43,652 bases of DNA from Deltaproteobacteria bacterium (GTDB lineage: Bacteria; Desulfobacterota; DSM-4660; Desulfatiglandales; HGW-15): positions 1-43,652 of the forward strand of contig JAFDJA010000005.1 of assembly GCA_019307745.1 (NCBI GenBank), written 5' to 3'. The position numbers were made by a program, and so were the translations under genes. Each line of letters opens with the position of its first letter. The stretch's first letter is position 1. The notes beneath the pieces were generated by a model. It was given only the letters and a program-made list of their open reading frames with translations. It was not told the origin of the DNA and ran no database searches. Positions 1,324 through 43,351 of the stretch are shown piece after piece.

Positions 1324-3958
1324 AGACAACGCCATTACAGACAACAGCGGGGCGTGGGGCATATACTATTATGATGCTCCTGCCGCGCCTGTGATTTCAG
1401 GCAATACGATCACAGAAAATTTCCGAAGCATGATAATCCCGGCAAGCTCCTTACCCAACAGCGCTGACGGGAACACCCTTGCCCCTAACAGCGTAAACGG
1501 GGTGTGGATACGGGGCAACGCGAGGGCCACAGACCTTCGTCTGGAGATGCTCTATGCGGGAGAAGAGCATGAGCTCAGCACCTACCAGATCTATGACACA
1601 ATGACCATGAATTCGGGAGTTACCCTTACGGTGGACCCCGGTGTGGTGGTGAAGTTTTACTCTGGCGCGGGGCTTACCATCAACGGCGGGCTTGACGCGC
1701 AAGGGACATCGGATTTTCCTGTTGTCTTTACCTCCTACAAGGATGACCAGTACGGAGGGGACCTGAACCTTGACGGTTATGATACAACTCCTGTCAACGG
1801 CGATTGGCGTGGCATCTATTTCACCAACCAGGCAGATGACGGAGCGTGCGTGATCGACAACGCGGTGATCCGGTACGGCGGCAGCGCCAACAGCGGTATG
1901 ATATACGCCTATCAGACGAATTTTCCCATCACCAACAGCGTGATATCCAACTCCAGCACCAATGGTATTCGTTCCTACCAGTCGAGCCTGACACTTGCCA
2001 ATAACGAGGTCTTCAGCAACATTGGTGATGGTCTCTATCTTGAATCCTCAGGCACCCATACGATGACAGGGATGAGGATCTTTGCCAATTTTGGTGACGG
2101 GATAGAGGTCAGGAACAGTGTAAGTTCAGCAGTAACGGACAGTGAGATTTTTGGAAATACTGGCTACGGCATCAGGAACAGTACCGGTGTGACTATACCT
2201 GCCCGGGACAACTGGTGGGGAGCAGTGGACGGTCCCGGCGGCAGCGGCACTGGTTCCGGAGATGAGGTCAACGCCTATGTGGATTATGGCTCTCATCTTA
2301 CAACCGGTACGGAGTTCAGCTATTTTGACGCGGGCGGCACAGGTCATTATGGGTACAATATAAGCCAACCAACTGTGAGCGGAATTCCTTCCGATGAATG
2401 GGGTACAAATCCCACGCAGACTTTCCTGTATAATATGGATGAAGGCTTGATTACTGCCGAGTACGCTGACCTTTCAGCATCCTCAACATACAGATTGTTT
2501 GTAACCTATCTGAATCAGGACGATGGCGGCGGGATACAAAACCTGACCGATATAAACAATAAAATAATCCATCCCTCATGGGTGCTCCCTACATCTAATC
2601 CGGTGCAGTATGACTTTTTTATTGCCCCTGATTCCATTGTGGGCGGGAACCTGAGGCTTAATTTTAATGGTCTTTCCGGCCTGAGGACCGTGGTTTCCGG
2701 CATCTTTTTGATAAAAGAGATCTCAACTGACAGCACACCTCCGGTAATTCATCTGAACACCCCGGTCAATGGGGATATTCTGCGGACAGAGGAGCATTTC
2801 ATCTCAGGTACGGTATCTGATGCAGATTCCGGCGTATGGGCTGTGGAAGCCGGGATACAGAAGACAGGGGAAGATCTGAACTGGTATCCTGTAACCTCTG
2901 TCAACAGCACCGGAACGTGGGCATATCAATGGAATAATCCTTCCAGCGGCGAATACACACTCATGGCCAGGGCCGCGGACCAAAGCGGCAATCTGGCGAT
3001 CGCTCTGGAAGTGGCGGTTGTCACCATAGACGGATTAGCGCCATCTCCTGTGACAGGGCTTTTTGTCCAGGGTCTCAGCGGTGTCAGTGATACAATGCGT
3101 CTCACCTGGGCTCTATCCACAGACGATGGGTCAGGGGCCAGTGATGTGGCTGGATATGAGACCTACAGGAGTGAGGGTGCATTCCTGGACTACACCCTTG
3201 TGGGCCAGGCCGCGCCAGGGATCTCTCAGTTTGATGATACCCCTGTGGCAGGGGGGACGGATTATTTTTATTATGTCAGCGCCGTGGATCACGCGGGAAA
3301 CGGTTCGGATTCCACAGTTTTTGGGCCTGTGCAATCAACAGGTGCCAGTGACATAACCCCGCCTGAGGACGTCGCCAGTCTTACAGCCTATGCAACTCAG
3401 GTTTCAGGAGGCAATCCGTCTGTATTCCTCACATGGGCGGGAAGCGCTGATACAGCAGGAGACCTGGTAGACCAACTTCTTTATGTGTCAACAACGAGTG
3501 GTATTACATCCTTTGGTAATAACAACCCGGACTATGATAACGGCCTTGCATACAGCCTTGGCAGAGAGGCCCGGAGTTACCAGGAGATCAGTTTGGCCTC
3601 TGGTCAGGCTTACACCTTTAGGATTACCACTGTTGACGAAGTTCCCAATGAGAGCAGCGGGACAACGGTCACAGTAACACCTGCTGGTATTGAAACCGAG
3701 GTAATCACCCTGGGTGGGACACTTTCAACTGACACGCATCTGAAGAGTGGTGTTTATGTGATCTCAACCGACCTTACTATTCCGGTGGGTGTCACCCTGA
3801 CCATTGAGCCCGGGGTGATAGTGAAGTTTGCCCAAAATCGTTCCATGCTGGTTTATGGGACCCTTACGGCAGTGGGATCAAGCGGGAATGAGGTTGTGTT
3901 TACCTCGTTTACGGATGACGATTTTGGCGGAGACTCAAACGGAGGCGGTCCTATATGA
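1324..3958 (+). CDS. Beta-helix surface protein, middle fragment (frame-shifted)
   Basis: This is the continuation of the beta-helix gene, in the next frame. An open frame with a nominal ATG begins at 1274, but homologous coding resumes only after the duplication at 1304-1323, and no ribosome binding site marks a start. The order is: the end of one beta-helix module, a full module ending in the typical DNWWGAVDGPGG turn, a jelly-roll-like segment, an Ig-like domain (from about 2735, with STPPVIHLNTPVNGD) and an FN3-like domain (about 3015-3340). A linker and the start of another module follow (LTIPVGVTLTIEPGVIVKF). The frame stops at 3956-3958 because sequence present in the parallel module at 104-215 is missing here. 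The fragment is not expected to be made on its own. Confidence 0.65.
3848..3950 (+). repeat. Second copy of the 103-bp module repeat
   Basis: Identical to 1-103. Just after this copy about 112 bp are missing relative to the first copy: the sequence passes from GGCGGTC straight to CTATATGAAC, where the first copy has bases 104-215. The loss shifts the frame. Confidence 0.85.
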
Positions 3959-6900
3959 ACAACTCTTCTGTGCCGGTGATATTGAGTGAGATCTCAGATG
4001 GGTCATCCTTTGGGATCTATTCCTATGATTGCTCTCCCCTGATCCAGGGAAACACGATCTCCAATAATGGGAGCTATGGGATCTACCATCGTGGTTACTA
4101 CACCCTGCCAAGCCCGGTGGACCGGAATAACACCATTACGGGCAACTCTTATGGAATCTATGTTCGATACGCCACCCCCACGATTGACGGGAACACGATC
4201 TCAGGCAACACCAACTACGGGATATATTTTTACCAGGTAACAAACAGTCCAGTTATTACCAGTAACACCATTACAGGGAATCAGGTCTCGATGGTTGTTC
4301 CTGCCAGCGCACTGCCGGATAGTACGAATGTACTCACGCCCAACACAAAGAGCTATATTGGCGTCTATGGAAATGCGATCCAGGAAGATAAGCAGCTGCT
4401 TGTCTGGGGGGAGGGCACACCCGATGAAGTCAGCACCTATGTGGTATTTTCCGGAAACGTAACTGTGCCGGCCTACACCTTTCTTGTCATTGATCCCGGA
4501 GTTACCATGAAGTTCGGCACAGGCGCGGAACTTACAGTTAATGGCGCCATTGTCGCGGATGGGACAATAGATAAAAAGATCGCCTTTACCTCGATCAAGG
4601 ATGACACCTATGGGGGGGATACCAACAACGACGGCTTTAACAGTACTCCTGCCAACGGTGACTGGCAGGGAATTGTTTTCAATGATTCCTTTTTTGAGGC
4701 TTCCTCCTACCTTAATCATGTAAAGGTTCATTATGGCGGATCAAACGGCTCTGGTGGAATTTATATCTATCAGGCCGACATAACCATGGAAAACAGCGAG
4801 ATCTCAAACAGTTACTCCAATGGTGTTCGTGTGTATTCTGCTTCTCCTACGATAACCGGCAACCGGATCTGGGGAAACAGCGCGGATGGTATTCGGGTGG
4901 AGCAAAATTCCGACGCAGAGATCACCTTTAACAAGATCTCCACCAATTTTTCTGACGGTATAGAAGTTCTCGGATCTTCCAATGTACTGGCCACCAATAA
5001 TCAGATTTTCATGAACCGGCAATATGGAATCTACAATCAGACCGGCAACCTGGTGGATGCCACACAGACCTGGTGGGGTGACTCTGACGCAAGCGGCCCA
5101 TATCACGCCACAACGAATCCCGCAGGAACCGGTAACCGGGTAAGTGATAATGTGGATTACAGCTCCTTCAAGACAACGCCTGCTCTTGCCTTTTCTTATC
5201 GTAACTTCAGTGTTGCATCAGGATCTACATACGGGTCCATGGATATGCCCGTATTGACACAGGGGGCACTTTCCGATGAATGGGACCCCGGCAGTTTAAG
5301 GCCGGATCGTACCATGGCCTGGGATGAGTCTAAAGTCATTCTGGATTATACCGGTCTAGTGAGCACTGATCGTTACAAGGTGCGAACCAGTTATTTTAAC
5401 GGTGATCCCAGTGCCAGCCTCCAGAGCCTGACAGACCAGACGGACAACCAGGTCCACGGATCAATTGTGATGCCCACATCGGTGCCTGTCCAGTTCGAAT
5501 TTTCCATCCCATCCTCCTACTATTCAGGCGGCACTGTCTCATTGAAGTTTGTACATGACAATCCAGACACCTCTATTCGGGCGGCGGTCCCGGAGGTGTG
5601 GCTCATGCAGAATATCCTTGAATTCACTCCGCCCCTGTTTGAGGCGGTGGAATACAATGATATGGATGGCGACGGTCTGCTGAGTGTGGGTGATGAGTTT
5701 TATTTCCACTTTTCCGAGGAGATGGATAGTGCCTACCTGGTAAGCGGCACTACTGATGCAAACGCCCGGCTTGTGCCGGAAGGCGGTCTCATATACGGCA
5801 CAATCAATCAGACACGCTGGACCCCTGATAATAAGACGGCCATTGTCACCCTCTCGGATGGCTTTACTGTGACCGGATTAGAGACCATTACTCCTAACGG
5901 TCTGTATGATCCGTTTGAAAATGAATCAATCGGCAGCCAGGATCTGACTATTGTTGATACTATTGATCCTGTATTTACTGGATTGGACTGGATAGATAAT
6001 GACGGAAACAGCGGAATCAGCCTGGGAGACCAGTACATCTTTCATTTCAGCGAGACCATGGATATTTCAGTGATCCAGGACGGGACAGTGGATGCCAACG
6101 TATACCTCAGGCCTGCAGGCGGGATGCGCTATGGAGACGCGAACACGATCAGTTGGGGTCCTGATGGAAGAGAACTTGCTGTGACAGTTACTGAGGGCTT
6201 TACTATCCTCGGGAACGAACTGGTAATTCCAAGCAGCCTAGTGGTTGATGTGGCGGGAAATTCTGTTTTTGGATCACACCAAGCCTATGCATCTACATTG
6301 TATGTCCTTTCTATGAATGTCAGCGGGAATGGTACAACCTCTCCGTCAATAGGGAATCACTACTATATTGAGGGCAGCGGAGTTTCCATCACGGCAGTCC
6401 CTGACAGCGGGTGGGAGTTTGTCAGCTGGAGTGGTGATTTGACGGGTTCAGCTAACCCCACAACAATTGCCATGGATTCAGATAAGACGGTCACGGCTGT
6501 GTTTACTGGGGGAGTGACAACAACCTATACCCTGACAACCATTACTTCCCCTTTCGGAGGAGGCTCGATTACAGCCTTAGGTATAGACTGTCCCGGGGAT
6601 TGTGTTAATACCTATGATACAGGCACAGTGGTCACAATTACTGCTACACCTGACAGCGGGTGGGAGTTTGTCAGCTGGAGTGGTGATTTGACGGGTTCAG
6701 CTAACCCCACAACAATTACCATGGATTCAGACAAGACTGTCACGGCTGTGTTTATCGGGGGAGTGACAACAACCTATACCCTGACAACCATTACTTCCCC
6801 TCTCGGAGGAGGTTCGATTACAGCCTTAGGTATAGACTGTCCTGTGGATTGTGATAATACCTATGATGAAGGCACAGTGGTTACTGTTACTGCTACACCT

Positions 6901-8487
6901 GCCAGCGGGTGGGAGTTTGAGAGCTGGACGGGCGGTGTCGCAAATACAGGTCTTTCAACAACAACGGTGACCATGAATTCCGACAAGACGGTCACGGCTA
7001 AGTTTACTGAGTTGTCAGCCCCAAAACACAAGCTCACTATTGAAATTCAAGGTGTCGGAGCGGTATCTCCTTTTGAGGGAACCCGTTCATTGCCAGAAGG
7101 TGATGTGACTCTGAGCGCGGTTACCGGAGAAAAATGTGCATTTCAATACTGGCAATACAGCGGAGTAACCATCTCTGATGGGATCTTAATGATTTATCTG
7201 ACTGAAGATATGACCATTGTTGCAGTATTTAACTGCCCCCCTGATACACCTTATATCAAACCGGACGGGGGTATTGAAGATAATGCCATTATCCCACCTC
7301 CACCTGACATGACAACCGTATGGCTTCACACAAGCGATTTTGCTGATGCTGATGATGATACACACCTTTATTCACACTGGCAGGTAAGAAGAGGTGACAG
7401 CATCTGGGGCAGGTATGATTATCCCGGGTCTTTTGATTTTATCGCGGATTTATTCAGCGGTCTTACTATGCATGAGGTTTCCGGTATTACTGTTGGAATG
7501 AAGTATGACTGGAGGGTAGGATATGTTGATTCCGGAAGTGGAGTAACCTCTCTATCTAAAGAGTACAGTTTTATTGTTGGGGAATTGGAACTATGTTCGA
7601 AACCTGTTCAGGGTGGCGATAAGGTTTTTGATTACAGGATGATCTCTTTTCCATACTGGCCCAGAATTTCTTTTGCGGAAAAATTGTTTGGCCTTACCGA
7701 TGATCCTACGGTTTTCAGGGCAGGCACCTATGTTCCAGGCTCAGGATACAGAGAGTATGGACACGGTCTTAGAATTAAACCTGGAAGGGCCTATTGGGTA
7801 CTTTCAAGGAATCCCGTTAATATCAGCTTTAGCGGTGTGTCGGTAAGTACCGGCCTGGATATTGAAACAGGATTGTATTATAATGGAAAGACAGGAAACG
7901 GCTGGAACCAGATAGGAATTCCCAATAACAAGGTGTACTCATGGGATGACATACAGGTAGTACAATATGATCTTGCCAGCGGTACTACAAAATTTGGTCC
8001 AACACCGATCTATTCCGGGGTGACATACTCGGAAGTGTCTGCCTATATTGATACAAGGTTGTGGAAATGGACTGGAGATCCGGATCTACCGTATATCTCA
8101 TATGATCCGCATGATTCTGGGGTCACATATACCTCTGGTGCCAGTATTTTGTATCCTTACAACGGCTATTGGGTGGAGGCAAGGAAACCAAACGTATTTC
8201 TTGTGTTTCCGGCAGATGCGGGAGAACCTGCTCCCCTGTTTGAAAGTTTTTATGATGTGCCGCGTGTGAGCCAGGCAGATATCTCACGTACCGTATTTAT
8301 GGACTCTCCCCCAATGCCGGGCAGCGGTTCCAAAAAAAGTTCCGATGACACCGGGTGTTTTATTTATATGGCCGATTCTGTTTCCTGGCACAAGACGGTA
8401 GGCGTTGTGGCTTTGATCATCCTGCTTATGATTGTAAGATTTATCTATCAACTGAAGGTTAGTCGTGGAAGCAGTGCGGGTATCTGA
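3955..8487 (+). CDS. Large beta-helix / InlB-repeat surface protein, C-terminal fragment
   Basis: This is the largest piece of the broken surface gene. The ATG at 3955 lies inside a module (MNNSSVP, which aligns with MYNSAVP and MNNSSVP of the other modules) and has no Shine-Dalgarno sequence, so it is a fragment edge. Order by residue: beta-helix coils (1 to about 390), a jelly-roll-like segment, two Ig-like domains each starting with a D-x-D-x-D-like loop (DMDGDG, DNDGNSG; about 565-780), and three divergent InlB B-repeats of 83 residues (about 782-1020). Then come a further repeat, a Tyr/Trp-rich C-terminal region and a tail. The tail has a GCFI motif, one membrane helix (VVALIILLMIVRFIY) and a short basic end, which suggests C-terminal anchoring or sorting. 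It is likely displayed on the cell surface; ligand and activity are unknown. Confidence 0.75.
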   Translation: MNNSSVPVILSEISDGSSFGIYSYDCSPLIQGNTISNNGSYGIYHRGYYTLPSPVDRNNTITGNSYGIYVRYATPTIDGNTISGNTNYGIYFYQVTNSPVITSNTITGNQVSMVVPASALPDSTNVLTPNTKSYIGVYGNAIQEDKQLLVWGEGTPDEVSTYVVFSGNVTVPAYTFLVIDPGVTMKFGTGAELTVNGAIVADGTIDKKIAFTSIKDDTYGGDTNNDGFNSTPANGDWQGIVFNDSFFEASSYLNHVKVHYGGSNGSGGIYIYQADITMENSEISNSYSNGVRVYSASPTITGNRIWGNSADGIRVEQNSDAEITFNKISTNFSDGIEVLGSSNVLATNNQIFMNRQYGIYNQTGNLVDATQTWWGDSDASGPYHATTNPAGTGNRVSDNVDYSSFKTTPALAFSYRNFSVASGSTYGSMDMPVLTQGALSDEWDPGSLRPDRTMAWDESKVILDYTGLVSTDRYKVRTSYFNGDPSASLQSLTDQTDNQVHGSIVMPTSVPVQFEFSIPSSYYSGGTVSLKFVHDNPDTSIRAAVPEVWLMQNILEFTPPLFEAVEYNDMDGDGLLSVGDEFYFHFSEEMDSAYLVSGTTDANARLVPEGGLIYGTINQTRWTPDNKTAIVTLSDGFTVTGLETITPNGLYDPFENESIGSQDLTIVDTIDPVFTGLDWIDNDGNSGISLGDQYIFHFSETMDISVIQDGTVDANVYLRPAGGMRYGDANTISWGPDGRELAVTVTEGFTILGNELVIPSSLVVDVAGNSVFGSHQAYASTLYVLSMNVSGNGTTSPSIGNHYYIEGSGVSITAVPDSGWEFVSWSGDLTGSANPTTIAMDSDKTVTAVFTGGVTTTYTLTTITSPFGGGSITALGIDCPGDCVNTYDTGTVVTITATPDSGWEFVSWSGDLTGSANPTTITMDSDKTVTAVFIGGVTTTYTLTTITSPLGGGSITALGIDCPVDCDNTYDEGTVVTVTATPASGWEFESWTGGVANTGLSTTTVTMNSDKTVTAKFTELSAPKHKLTIEIQGVGAVSPFEGTRSLPEGDVTLSAVTGEKCAFQYWQYSGVTISDGILMIYLTEDMTIVAVFNCPPDTPYIKPDGGIEDNAIIPPPPDMTTVWLHTSDFADADDDTHLYSHWQVRRGDSIWGRYDYPGSFDFIADLFSGLTMHEVSGITVGMKYDWRVGYVDSGSGVTSLSKEYSFIVGELELCSKPVQGGDKVFDYRMISFPYWPRISFAEKLFGLTDDPTVFRAGTYVPGSGYREYGHGLRIKPGRAYWVLSRNPVNISFSGVSVSTGLDIETGLYYNGKTGNGWNQIGIPNNKVYSWDDIQVVQYDLASGTTKFGPTPIYSGVTYSEVSAYIDTRLWKWTGDPDLPYISYDPHDSGVTYTSGASILYPYNGYWVEARKPNVFLVFPADAGEPAPLFESFYDVPRVSQADISRTVFMDSPPMPGSGSKKSSDDTGCFIYMADSVSWHKTVGVVALIILLMIVRFIYQLKVSRGSSAGI
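6400..7010 (+). repeat. Tandem 249-bp (83-residue) InlB-type repeats
   Basis: Copies start near 6400, 6649 and 6898 with an exact 249-bp period. Each encodes SGWEFVSWSGDLTG-like and SDKTVTAVF-like strands plus a CPxDC pair. The first two copies are almost identical at the DNA level, which points to recent duplication or gene conversion. Confidence 0.85.
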
Positions 8488-9549: not shown

Positions 9550-10563
9550 TCATTGCAAGATCATGATACCTTCAGGTGGACAGGCTATGTAGACCTCCTC
9601 TCCCACACAAAATTTCATATCCTTATAAGTCTCTTTGGGTATGAGTACACCAAGCAGTACTCCCGTATCAACCTGGGCTCTGACATATTCCTGTTCATCG
9701 GCAATCTGGATGAGTCGTCCTTTTGATAAGCCTGGCGGGGGAGTGACTTTGCCGTATTTTTTAATTTTAAGTGCTGTGGGGCTTATAGATATTTTGATTC
9801 TGCCGGATTGTTCTGTCTGTACCGGGAACTTCAGTCCCGGCATAACTGTACAATATTTATTCCCATTATCATCTATCTCGATATAGCCGCCAAATATATT
9901 TTCATTAATTGCCTTGGTCTTTTTCCCGTTTTCCAGAAATATGGTCTTGTCTGATATCCTGGAGGCAAGAACCGTGTCATGAGTGGAAAATATGACAGAG
10001 ATCCCTTTTTTCTGGTTAATCTCTCTGATAATACGTTCAATAACAGTCCGATTTTCTACATCAACGCCTGACATGGGTTCATCAAGAAGGATGGCGTCAG
10101 GAGAGCAGGCAAGCGCCTGGGCTATGGCAACCCGCTGGGTCTCGCCTCCTGAAAGGTTCTGCGCTTCTGAGGTCATATATGATTCCATCCCCACAAGTCC
10201 AAGGATTTTTTTTACGGCCCGCTTCCGTTCCGGTCCAGGTATGCCGCGTGTCTTCATGGGAAACTCGACGTTCCTGAAAACTGTTGAGGTAAACATTATA
10301 GGCTGCTGCTGCACAAGGACGATTTTTTTCCGAAGTCTGAACCTGTCAGGTGAGCTAGTAAAATCTATATCTTCATTCCTGAAACGGATTTCACCGGATG
10401 TGGGTACAAGCAGAAACGCGAGTATCTCAAGCAGGGTTGTCTTGCCAGCGCCATTCGGGCCCAGCAGGCTGATGATCCTGCCTTTTTCTATCAAGAGGGA
10501 TCTCAATTCCAGGACTGTCCTGTCATTATAAGTTTTTATCAGATTTGTGATTTCGTATAACAT
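9550..10563 (-). CDS. tupC: Tungstate/molybdate ABC transporter ATP-binding protein
   Basis: 337 residues from ATG 10563 (MLYEITNLIK). An earlier in-frame ATG at 10602 lies inside the upstream permease gene and is unlikely. It contains Walker A GPNGAGKTT, signature LSGGETQRVAIAQAL, Walker B AILLDEPMSGVD and the switch His (IFSTHD). A C-terminal TOBE/Mop-like domain (about 265-335) probably binds oxyanion and regulates ATPase activity, as in ModC. It powers uptake through the TupB permease at the inner membrane. The start is 1 base beyond the permease stop, so the two are probably coupled. Confidence 0.88.
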   Translation of the reverse strand: MLYEITNLIKTYNDRTVLELRSLLIEKGRIISLLGPNGAGKTTLLEILAFLLVPTSGEIRFRNEDIDFTSSPDRFRLRKKIVLVQQQPIMFTSTVFRNVEFPMKTRGIPGPERKRAVKKILGLVGMESYMTSEAQNLSGGETQRVAIAQALACSPDAILLDEPMSGVDVENRTVIERIIREINQKKGISVIFSTHDTVLASRISDKTIFLENGKKTKAINENIFGGYIEIDDNGNKYCTVMPGLKFPVQTEQSGRIKISISPTALKIKKYGKVTPPPGLSKGRLIQIADEQEYVRAQVDTGVLLGVLIPKETYKDMKFCVGEEVYIACPPEGIMILQ

Positions 10564-10564
10564 C

Positions 10565-11260
10565 CTAATTTGTCGTCCTGCCTTGGAAATAATTAAACAC
10601 AATATTTACACTGAAGCTCACAAGAAGGAGGATAAGACCCAGGGCGATGCTCAAGACAAACTCCCCCTTGTCATACTCCAGGGCCATGGCGGTTGTCATG
10701 GTCCGGGTAAATCCTTTTGCATTTCCCCCAAGCATCATACTTATACCCACCTCTGCTATTACCCTGCCAAAGGAAAGGATGACAGCGCCCATGATTCCAA
10801 AACGTGCCTCACGCATTATCACGCAGGCGGTTTGCCAGCTGTTGGCCCCCAGGGTCAGGGCAGTTTTGCGATATCGGTCGTCAATACGACTTATTGCCGA
10901 TATTGTAAATGTGGTCACAATGGGAGCAATCAGGATAATCTGACCAATGATAATGGCCTTTTGGGTATAAAGGAGGTCCAGAGGGCCCAATATTCCCCTG
11001 CGTGAGATAAAAGAATACACAAAGAGACCAATGACAACTGTTGGAATTGAAAGCATCGTGTTCAAGACCGTAATCAGAAGTCGTTTGCCCCTGAAATGGC
11101 GCATAGAGATGGCAAGGCCTGTTGGGATACCTATAAGGCCGGCAATGAGGGTGGAAGCGATACTCACCTTAATAGAGACACCGACAATATTGAAAAGCTC
11201 AGGATTGAGGGAACAGATGAGCATGAAGGAGGATTTGAGGCTGTCAAAAAGAAGTGTCAT
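10565..11260 (-). CDS. tupB: Tungstate ABC transporter permease
   Basis: 231 residues with about five hydrophobic segments and the binding-protein-dependent permease fold, including the EAA-like loop (ALTLGANSWQTACVIMREAR, roughly 135-155) that docks on the ATPase. The length and the GRVIAEVGISMMLGGN segment fit the TupB/ModB-like family. It lies between tupA (6 bp gap) and tupC. It forms the membrane channel for tungstate; specificity cannot be proved from the permease alone and is inferred from TupA. Confidence 0.88.
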   Translation of the reverse strand: MTLLFDSLKSSFMLICSLNPELFNIVGVSIKVSIASTLIAGLIGIPTGLAISMRHFRGKRLLITVLNTMLSIPTVVIGLFVYSFISRRGILGPLDLLYTQKAIIIGQIILIAPIVTTFTISAISRIDDRYRKTALTLGANSWQTACVIMREARFGIMGAVILSFGRVIAEVGISMMLGGNAKGFTRTMTTAMALEYDKGEFVLSIALGLILLLVSFSVNIVFNYFQGRTTN

Positions 11261-11266
11261 AAGGCT

Positions 11267-12175
11267 CTATCTTTCCTGTGTTTCAGAAATTGCATCCGGA
11301 AAGAACGCCTGCTGTCCATGAATTTTGTACCCTGAAATAATGGACTGGGCTTTTGGGGAGATAAGCCATTTTGCAAACCTGTCTGCCAGCTCAAACCTTA
11401 CATGTGGATGTTTTTTCTGGCTTACAGGGATGATGCCATATGGATTAAAAAGCACCGGGTCCCCCTGACACATGATTTCCAGGTCCAGCCCCAGTTCCCT
11501 GCCGAATTTGTAGTTCAGGAATGTTCCCCGATCAGTAAGGGTGTAGGCATGCTTCTCCTCTGCAAAGGTAAGTGCTTTGCCCATGCCCTGCCCTATGGAC
11601 ATATACCATGTGCCCATACCTTCTGGGTACTTAAAGTAAAGTTTTGATTTATGTCCATTTTCTATGACTTCCGTGGTTTCAGTTTCAAGAGGAATACCAG
11701 CGTTCCTCCAGAGGTCCAGTTCCTTAATGTGGGTGCCGCTGTCATCGCCTCTGGAAACAAACATAGATCTGTTCTCCGCGATCCTCTTTAGGGCGGTGGC
11801 GGCTTCATTTGTCCCCTTGATCCCTGCGGGATCATCTTTTGGCCCGACCAGCACAAAGTCATTATACATAATCCCCAGACGATAGGCACCATATCCTTCA
11901 GCGATAAAAAGGTCTTCCCTCTTCCGTGCGTGTACAAAGATGATATCAACATTTCCGGATATGGCATCAGCAATGGCAGCACCTGTACCCTTAGCAAATA
12001 CCTTGACCCTAATGCCTGCCTCTTTTTCGAATTCCGGCAGGAGTATATCGAGCAATCCGGAGTTTTCAGTGCTGGTTGTGGTGGCCATCTTGATAGATTC
12101 ATCTGCACGGATCATTGAGGATGCAAACAGCATGAAGCCAACTGTTAATATCCCTATAATTTGGCGTTTTATCAA
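11267..12175 (-). CDS. tupA: Tungstate-binding periplasmic protein
   Basis: 302 residues. The start is TTG 12175, chosen because AGGAGGG sits 5 bases upstream. An N-terminal signal peptide (about 1-24) is followed by MATTTSTENSGLL; the TTTS motif is typical of TupA oxyanion-binding proteins. Later conserved segments are GTGAAIADA, DIIFVHARK, NDFVLVGP and FVSRGDDSGTH. It captures tungstate in the periplasm and delivers it to TupB/TupC. Tungsten would supply tungsto-enzymes such as formate dehydrogenase or aldehyde oxidoreductase, in line with fdhD further along. Molybdate is a possible alternative ligand. Confidence 0.88.
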   Translation of the reverse strand: MIKRQIIGILTVGFMLFASSMIRADESIKMATTTSTENSGLLDILLPEFEKEAGIRVKVFAKGTGAAIADAISGNVDIIFVHARKREDLFIAEGYGAYRLGIMYNDFVLVGPKDDPAGIKGTNEAATALKRIAENRSMFVSRGDDSGTHIKELDLWRNAGIPLETETTEVIENGHKSKLYFKYPEGMGTWYMSIGQGMGKALTFAEEKHAYTLTDRGTFLNYKFGRELGLDLEIMCQGDPVLFNPYGIIPVSQKKHPHVRFELADRFAKWLISPKAQSIISGYKIHGQQAFFPDAISETQER

Positions 12176-14247: not shown

Positions 14248-14387
14248 GGCTTTATGGGAGATGTTTGTATTTTATGATGAATATAGTTTAGCTATTTCTA
14301 AGTTTCATGTTGAACTTTAAAAGAGTTTTCAGGACAGGATTAAGTGTGTGCAGGGCAGCAGGTTCTGGAAAAGGACCCGAAACATAG

Positions 14388-14762
14388 TCATGAATAGCCA
14401 CGCACAATTTTTTTGAAATAATTCATTATATCCCTTGAGTCTGCAATTACTGTATAAATAAGTACTATAAACTGCAGGCCGAAAATCACGCTCTCAACCT
14501 TAAAAAAGAGAGATGGATCTTTAATGAAAATAAGAAAAGGAACAATTATGGCGGAGATCCAGAGAAGCAGATACTGTATTAAAATTCTTTTTCTGTGATC
14601 TTGCCCTTTTATGAGAGATACTATCTTCAACAGGATAAAAATAATAAGGATATCTGAAATGCTCCACAGGATTCCCTGAAACCTTGTGACCGCCATATAT
14701 GCCTCAGTAGTAAATCCTGTACCTATCTGTAGAAACAATCTGTCTAGCAATGAACCGTTCAT
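14388..14762 (-). CDS. Unknown small membrane protein, second gene of a coupled pair
   Basis: 124 residues from ATG 14762, which overlaps the stop of the upstream gene in an ATGA (14759-14762). That overlap argues for this start over an ATG at 14819 inside the neighbour. It has three or more hydrophobic segments (about 28-50, 60-80, 88-106). Residues 33-50 (W33, D37, K46, then IVSLI) repeat the W-x3-[E/D]-x8-K-[VI]-[FV]-x-[LF] motif found three times in the upstream protein, so the two proteins are related pieces of one repeat family. I recognise no known family. They probably act together in the inner membrane. Confidence 0.65.
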   Translation of the reverse strand: MNGSLLDRLFLQIGTGFTTEAYMAVTRFQGILWSISDILIIFILLKIVSLIKGQDHRKRILIQYLLLWISAIIVPFLIFIKDPSLFFKVESVIFGLQFIVLIYTVIADSRDIMNYFKKIVRGYS

Positions 14763-15352
14763 GACTGCATCCTTTTTAGTAAAAAAAACACTTTGATCCC
14801 TATAAGGGCAACCGCCCACTCAAAAAGAATCCAGAATATACCGCATAGTTTGATATAGAAGAAGAATATGTTTTTTATATTACTGTCTCTTAATCCGGTT
14901 GCTCCGATCAAACTGTTAAGGTAGAGATGGTAAATCAGATATAATACCAGAAAAATGACAAACAATATGAATGATTCATATCGGAGGGATGTCGCCTGTG
15001 TATATTGTTTGCCTTCAATGGCCCCCTTTAGGAGCCTGAAGATTTTAAAGGAATATATTACTATTGCTCCCTCAATAACTACCCACAAGGTGCATAAAAA
15101 ATTCCATACATATCCGTTATAGTAGCGATGATGGGATAAAAAATTAAAAAATTTGAAGAAATTATTAAGGTGAAGTTCCAGTGAAAAGTTGAAAAGTGTT
15201 AGTATGATAAAAAAAGTAATCCAAATTATAAGATAATTTTTTTGATCTGTATCTCCTTTAGCAAGGAAGAGAAAAACTTTTCTCATATATACCATAATCA
15301 ACCCTTCGGCAAGAAGCCACAGGAGGCCCATTATTTTTGTAAAAATAGCCAT
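14759..15352 (-). CDS. Unknown multi-pass membrane protein with three internal repeats
   Basis: 197 residues, with five or six hydrophobic segments. Three copies of a motif stand at W12/E16/K25, W90/E94/K103 and W174/E178/K187, each W-x3-E-x8-K-[VI]-F-x-[LF]-L, with spacings of 78 and 84 residues. Each motif is a membrane helix with a buried acidic residue and a Lys at the cytoplasmic or periplasmic edge, followed in copies 1 and 2 by a second hydrophobic helix. The third copy ends at the stop codon, and a fourth copy continues in the downstream overlapping gene. No family is recognised. ATG 15352 is taken as the start; its SD is weak. Confidence 0.65.
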   Translation of the reverse strand: MAIFTKIMGLLWLLAEGLIMVYMRKVFLFLAKGDTDQKNYLIIWITFFIILTLFNFSLELHLNNFFKFFNFLSHHRYYNGYVWNFLCTLWVVIEGAIVIYSFKIFRLLKGAIEGKQYTQATSLRYESFILFVIFLVLYLIYHLYLNSLIGATGLRDSNIKNIFFFYIKLCGIFWILFEWAVALIGIKVFFLLKRMQS

Positions 15353-15560
15353 TGATAAAAGCCTTAACCTTTATAAAAAATAGAGTTTTGCATCCTGATC
15401 TTTGCAGGCGTAGTGAGAAATTCCCTGTATATATTTTCATGAATTATAAACTGTACCAGGGGAGTATAAAAAATGTAATCTGCCAAAGCATACTCGAAAA
15501 AAGACATATCACACAATATATATTTTTGAATAGCCTTTATCCAAGTTTTTTATTTTTCAC

Positions 15561-15590
15561 TTGACGTAGGTTAAAATAATAAAATATCAT
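15561..15590 (+). promoter_or_regulatory. Promoter of the first cold-shock gene
   Basis: TTGACG (15561-15566) and TATCAT (15585-15590) are 18 bp apart. The start would be near 15597, giving a leader of about 90 bases, which is usual for csp genes. Confidence 0.5.
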
Positions 15591-15592
15591 TT

Positions 15593-15629
15593 AATCACCT
15601 TTATATAAGTTGTGTATAAAAAGGTGATT
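15593..15629 (+). promoter_or_regulatory. Inverted repeat at the 5' end of the csp leader
   Basis: AATCACCTT (15593-15601) pairs with AAGGTGATT (15621-15629), with inner TATA/TATA pairing. The RNA would begin with, or just inside, this hairpin. It could stabilise the leader, act as a temperature-responsive element, or be an operator in DNA. Confidence 0.55.
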
Positions 15630-15688
15630 CGCTGGGGGTGGTATTGGAGAAAATAGATTTTTTTCAGTAAGTAAAGGAGGTGGAGATT

Positions 15689-15889
15689 TTGGAAACGGGA
15701 AAAGTTAAATGGTTTAATGAGAAGAAGGGTTTCGGTTTTATTGAACAGGAGGATGGACCTGACCTGTTTGTCCATTACTCGGCAATTGAATCTGAGGGAT
15801 TTAAGACTCTCAATGAGAATGATGAGGTGAGTTTTGAAGTGATTGAAAGTGAACGTGGACCAAAGGCTCAGGATGTCAAAAAGTTGTAA
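15689..15889 (+). CDS. CspA-family cold-shock protein
   Basis: 66 residues. TTG 15689 is chosen as start because AAAGGAGGT ends 7-8 bases upstream and it gives the normal family N-terminus ([18 protein letters not shown]). A GTG at 15680 overlaps the SD itself. It is a single-stranded nucleic-acid-binding OB fold with RNP1 (KGFGFI) and RNP2 (LFVHYSAI), acting as an RNA chaperone. It is monocistronic, with its own promoter, a leader hairpin and a terminator. A paralogue lies at 24549-24749. Confidence 0.93.
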
Positions 15890-42996: not shown

Positions 42997-43351
42997 GGGG
43001 GCGAAACGGGTTCGACGGGGATAAAGAAACTTAGGTTGCATACCGAGATTCCATCTACTCGTAAAACGGGTGGGCTTTAAAATAATCGCAGACGATTATA
43101 ACTACGCCTTAGCCGCGTAAAAAGGCTAACGTCCAGACTATTTTTCCTGCGAAATAGTCCAGGACGTCATCTTAGCAGGATAGCCGATCTGATTAACCTG
43201 CGGATCAGTGAGGCGAAACACTTTCACAGGTTAGCCAATGGCAACTTTGCCTGGTAGGGACCCAGCGGCGAAAATCTAGTATCAGGATATGTATGTAGAC
43301 GCTTAAGTGGAATATTTTCGGACGGGGGTTCGACTCCCCCCGCCTCCACCA
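42997..43351 (+). ncRNA. ssrA: tmRNA (SsrA)
   Basis: The mature ends are defined by a 7-bp acceptor stem: GGGGGCG (42997-43003) with CGCCTCC (43341-43347), discriminator A and CCA (43349-43351). The stem has G3-U70, the alanine-charging determinant. A GGTTCGACGGGG block follows the 5' arm and a T-arm GGGGGTTCGACTCCCCC precedes the 3' end. The tag frame GCA...TAA (43088-43120) encodes ADDYNYALAA, which ends in the usual degradation signal. Pseudoknot-like regions follow. It is adjacent to smpB. Confidence 0.95.
43322..43351 (+). other. Probable attachment site (att) at the tmRNA 3' end
   Basis: The T-arm/acceptor end of tmRNA is the usual target of this integrase type. A P4-type integrase starts 164 bases downstream. 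The second att copy is outside the window. Confidence 0.55.

Follow-up and report, generated by a model that had tools for sequence, protein, structure and literature searches.

A putative two-subunit membrane complex with a repeated acidic helix in deltaproteobacterial-type and Synergistota genomes

We read two overlapping genes in a 43,652-nucleotide stretch of Deltaproteobacteria DNA (contig JAFDJA010000005.1, here called the window) as encoding an uncharacterised, putative two-subunit membrane complex, P1 and P2, in which an acidic membrane helix would be repeated. If this reading is correct, an unannotated membrane complex has kept both of its subunits and the repeated helix in at least two phyla. 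The repeat, split over two genes that lie apart in one genome, would be a clean case of repeat-built membrane proteins dividing into subunits, and the pair is small enough for expression and testing.

The gene pair and its four motif copies

The first-pass annotation had placed the two genes at 14388-15352, with an ATGA overlap and four copies of W-x3-[ED]-x8-K, and translation of the minus strand reproduced all of this exactly (Table 1). Three motif copies in P1 were not obtained in any of 200,000 residue shuffles, and at least one copy in P2 was obtained in 0.7% of 200,000. Outside P1 and P2, the motif occurs as a single copy in one frame only (225 stop-to-stop frames of at least 60 codons, whole window).

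Table 1. The gene pair and its motif copies in the window
Feature	Position	Strand	Description
P1	14759..15352	-	197 aa; five membrane helices predicted, of which three carry the motif; has homologues
P2	14388..14762	-	124 aa; three membrane helices predicted, with the motif in the first; has homologues
ATGA, P1 stop overlapping P2 start	14759..14762	-	Seen in the sequence
Motif copy 1, W12/E16/K25 of P1	15278..15319	-	E or Q in 28/28 aligned P1
Motif copy 2, W90/E94/K103 of P1	15044..15085	-	E or D in 28/28 P1; R at K103 in 25
Motif copy 3, W174/E178/K187 of P1	14792..14833	-	E178 in 28/28 P1
Motif copy 4, W33/D37/K46 of P2	14625..14666	-	D in 31/32 P2; Asn in the remaining one

The G+C content is 31-37% across 14300-15800, which covers the pair and its upstream region, compared to about 46-52% on both flanks; the low value might be due to hydrophobic codons or to horizontal transfer. 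Elsewhere in the window there is a 249-base tandem repeat (6400-7007, 87-93% matching) within a 1510-aa frame (3955-8487), a tmRNA gene (42997-43351) with the tag ADDYNYALAA, and, on the minus strand at 9550-12175, three genes that by eye resemble an oxyanion (e.g., tungstate) ABC transporter, encoding the ATPase, the permease and the binding protein.

The first-pass annotation knew no named family for the pair, and our searches bear this out. All members of both families stayed below the Pfam and NCBIfam cut-offs, and the best matches were strays, each confined to one member (for example TMEM128, 0.0015). PADLOC, searched with P1 only, and PHROGs, searched with P2 only, gave no convincing match. 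The PDB gave no worthwhile match for P1 or P2 by sequence and none at E <= 0.001 by fold; the best fold match for P1, a GPCR (E 0.34, rmsd 9.6), was dismissed as noise. No match to P1 was found at E <= 0.001 in a viral fold library, viral contigs gave no relative of P2, and no description of the pair was found in the published literature.

Repeat structure and predicted shape

Helix profiles were built from the collected homologues and compared pairwise; E-values between such short profiles are approximate. With whole-family profiles, the pairwise matches among the three P1 motif helices have E-values of 2.4e-4, 2.3e-4 and 4e-6, in ungapped alignments whose register is that of the first-pass annotation. 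Pairs of a motif and a non-motif helix of P1 gave E-values of 0.03-0.36, and the two non-motif helices matched each other at 0.011. In the type I subset (defined below), the first helix of P2 matches P1 helix 1 (2e-6) and helix 5 (1.1e-4), and none of 100 column shuffles reached the observed scores. The match of this P2 helix to P1 helix 1 is weaker in the whole family (E 0.0026; 1 of 100 shuffles reaches the score), and it did not match P1 helix 3 in the profile comparison (E 0.046 in type I, 0.05-0.09 overall). The last helix of P2 was considered as a fifth repeat copy and rejected, with E >= 0.03 in the same type of comparison. Judged from these profiles, the motif helices are genuine repeats.

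The similarity extends beyond single helices. Hairpin 1 of P1 matches hairpin 2 at E 2.8e-5 over both of their helices; the hairpin of P2 matches the first hairpin of P1 weakly (E 0.004). Taken together, the helix and hairpin matches indicate that P1 consists of a duplicated hairpin followed by a third motif helix and that P2 opens with a fourth. The proposal of a duplicated helix-hairpin family is thus borne out within P1, where both the hairpins and the motif helices match, and falls short at the link between the P2 helix and P1 helix 3.

AlphaFold2, run with family alignments on P1 and P2 as single proteins, gave confident models in which the pair is predicted to have five plus three long helices. 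The P1 model (pLDDT 90.3, pTM 0.85) also contains a short helix (62-72), and the P2 model (pLDDT 89.6, pTM 0.71) has a short N-terminal helix before its three long ones. According to the positive-inside rule, basic residues are expected on the cytoplasmic side of the membrane. Their density is higher past every motif helix as well as at the C terminus of either protein, and therefore all four motif helices probably run from outside to inside. It had also been suggested that the acidic residues are buried. Their mid-helix position points in that direction, but a conservation-moment test for their facing was not significant.

Distribution, linkage and conservation

P2 homologues were found in 32 genomes: 21 of the 188 from the Synergistota, and others scattered sporadically among deltaproteobacterial-type bacteria. 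The window's genome was searched first, together with 60 relatives, of which 4 have the gene. A search of named contigs then brought in MAGs labelled Deltaproteobacteria and another labelled Acetomicrobium (Synergistota), and a search of the relatives of genome G463 gave four further carriers. In the window's own phylum, 2 of 395 genomes are positive, one of them being the window's genome. The pair is possibly present in other phyla as well, because the lone genome-contig scan was queried with type I only. Draft genomes are among those covered.

P1 lies directly upstream of P2 on the same strand in 30 of the 32 genomes. One of the other two, G543, has a contig that stops short of P1. In G699, P2 stands alone on one contig (C73, loci L095/L103) and P1 on another (C198, locus L101), both intact; this is the sole case found of the two genes being apart. 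Their unlinked co-occurrence, in this single draft genome, is the strongest sign that P1 and P2 cooperate. The earlier suggestion of a repeat family split over two genes holds, and both genes co-occur wherever this could be checked (30 linked, 1 unlinked, 1 contig end). The homologue search found no fused P1-P2 protein; a 339-aa frame in G906 (E 5.7e-4) was tried as a fusion and rejected, since it looks by eye to be of the TehA/SLAC1 type and is absent from the matches of both refined profiles at E <= 1. In G466 (L011:1050-1640), P1 is frameshifted and misses its second helix next to an intact P2, so that either the copy is broken or the assembly may be at fault. The MAG G010 carries the pair twice, in nearly identical form and at contig ends (L003/L012 on C208 and L006/L013 on C44); the two copies are probably strain variants.

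Residue conservation was assessed from 28 aligned P1 and 32 P2 sequences, and the family falls into two subfamilies. Type I includes the window, the remaining deltaproteobacterial-type genomes and two Synergistota genomes; it has E16, E94, E178 and D37, mostly with the tryptophan present four residues earlier. Type II, the larger one, includes the rest of the Synergistota carriers and has Q16, D94, E178 and D37; W12 is kept, and W90, W174 and W33 are mostly replaced by M, Y and C. K25 and K187 are unconserved, the former position usually holding W or Y; at K46, every P2 sequence but one has K or R. Across the family, the tryptophans and lysines are thus generally lost, with W12 and R103 as exceptions, and the repeated helix with an acidic (or Gln) residue at its middle is present throughout, with three copies in P1 and one in P2. 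The W/E/K motif is exact in the window's proteins, but since W and K vary, the motif as first written is one subfamily's version, from which the acidic position persists. Given the Gln in type II and the Asn in one genome, a fixed site of four carboxylates is not common to all members.

P1 and P2 change type in concert, and their pairwise identities correlate (r = 0.91). This fits co-inherited partners, and shared ancestry alone can suffice to explain it too. dN/dS is 0.07-0.23 in close pairs, and the pair is shown to be under purifying selection.

Possible role and comparison with known systems

The reading that we tentatively prefer, and that is quite possible, is a two-subunit inner-membrane complex derived from a duplicated acidic hairpin and handling a cation or proton as a transporter or channel. 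A two-helix hairpin with an acidic residue near mid-membrane in its first helix would have been duplicated to give rise to P1 and P2, which would assemble in the inner membrane as a complex of five plus three helices. The three motif helices of P1 and the one of P2 would run parallel, from the outside inwards, and their basic ends would lie on the cytoplasmic side. Their four side chains (Glu/Gln, Glu/Asp, Glu and Asp) would be placed at a similar depth and may form a shared site that binds and passes a proton, a metal ion or an organic cation, making the complex a small transporter or channel. The bolder form of this idea is unlikely: a new family of heteromeric transporters for ions or small molecules, in which four homologous parallel helices from two proteins would each contribute one acidic or polar side chain to a ring at a single depth.

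It is also conceivable, if doubtful to the same degree, that the pair has a structural or assembly role, in which hydrogen bonds between the acids and W, Y or Q would hold the helices together, and P1-P2 would stabilise another membrane system with no transport. The changes from Glu to Gln and from Trp to Tyr or Met, which preserve polarity or bulk and not charge, would suit such a role. However, E178 is unchanging and D37 almost so, which is strict for packing alone, and the neighbourhoods lack a constant partner gene.

Less likely again is a membrane sensor or signalling accessory that would feed a histidine kinase. Kinase-like genes adjoin P1 at two loci: in G021 (L010), P1 begins one base past the stop of a 999-aa protein with, by eye, PAS, histidine-kinase and receiver parts, and in G699 (L101) a kinase-like gene that bears a receiver lies convergent to P1. 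This is, however, limited to those two loci. Neighbours differ elsewhere and include, by eye, genes for an S8-type protease and serpin-like and RibBA-like genes. Beyond close relatives, no neighbours are common to the pair loci apart from P1 and P2 themselves; because the neighbours vary by lineage, no pathway is indicated.

For the named systems compared here (SMR, NuoJ/NuoK and lycopene cyclases), the defining features are general knowledge. CrtYc and CrtYd are heterodimeric lycopene cyclases, small adjacent repeat-derived membrane proteins with conserved acids, and P1-P2 resemble them as two small adjacent membrane proteins that derive from a repeat and have conserved acids. By analogy, the pair might be a membrane enzyme of two subunits whose substrate is lipid-soluble and whose acids serve as general acids, which we consider improbable: the lycopene cyclase domain is missing from the NCBIfam match lists of all members at E <= 1, no carotenoid genes near the pair are common across loci, and a widely common pathway gene is absent nearby.

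NuoJ and NuoK of complex I, and their Mrp counterparts, have five and three helices, lengths of about 200 and 120 aa, genes that overlap and membrane acidic residues, and P1-P2 share with them the five- and three-helix partners, the similar sizes, the overlap and the identical gene order; yet a relationship to these proton-path subunits is disfavoured and very improbable, as the conserved acid of P2 sits in its first helix, the NuoJ and NuoK families are missing from the Pfam match lists of all members at E <= 1, the PDB search by sequence was equally blank, complex I is not among the fold matches listed (all 6 for P2, best 50 of 279 for P1) though it is well represented in the PDB, and no complex I or Mrp genes or operon were found as shared neighbours of the pair.

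Paired small multidrug resistance (SMR) transporters such as EbrAB and YkkCD are encoded by two small adjacent genes, and their homologous four-helix subunits take opposite orientations. P1-P2 differ from them in having five and three long helices, in the lack of full-length homology between the subunits and in that both subunits look C-in, and the SMR family is missing from the Pfam match lists of all members at E <= 1. What the two systems have in common is a pair of small adjacent membrane-protein genes and a conserved membrane acid in the first helix.
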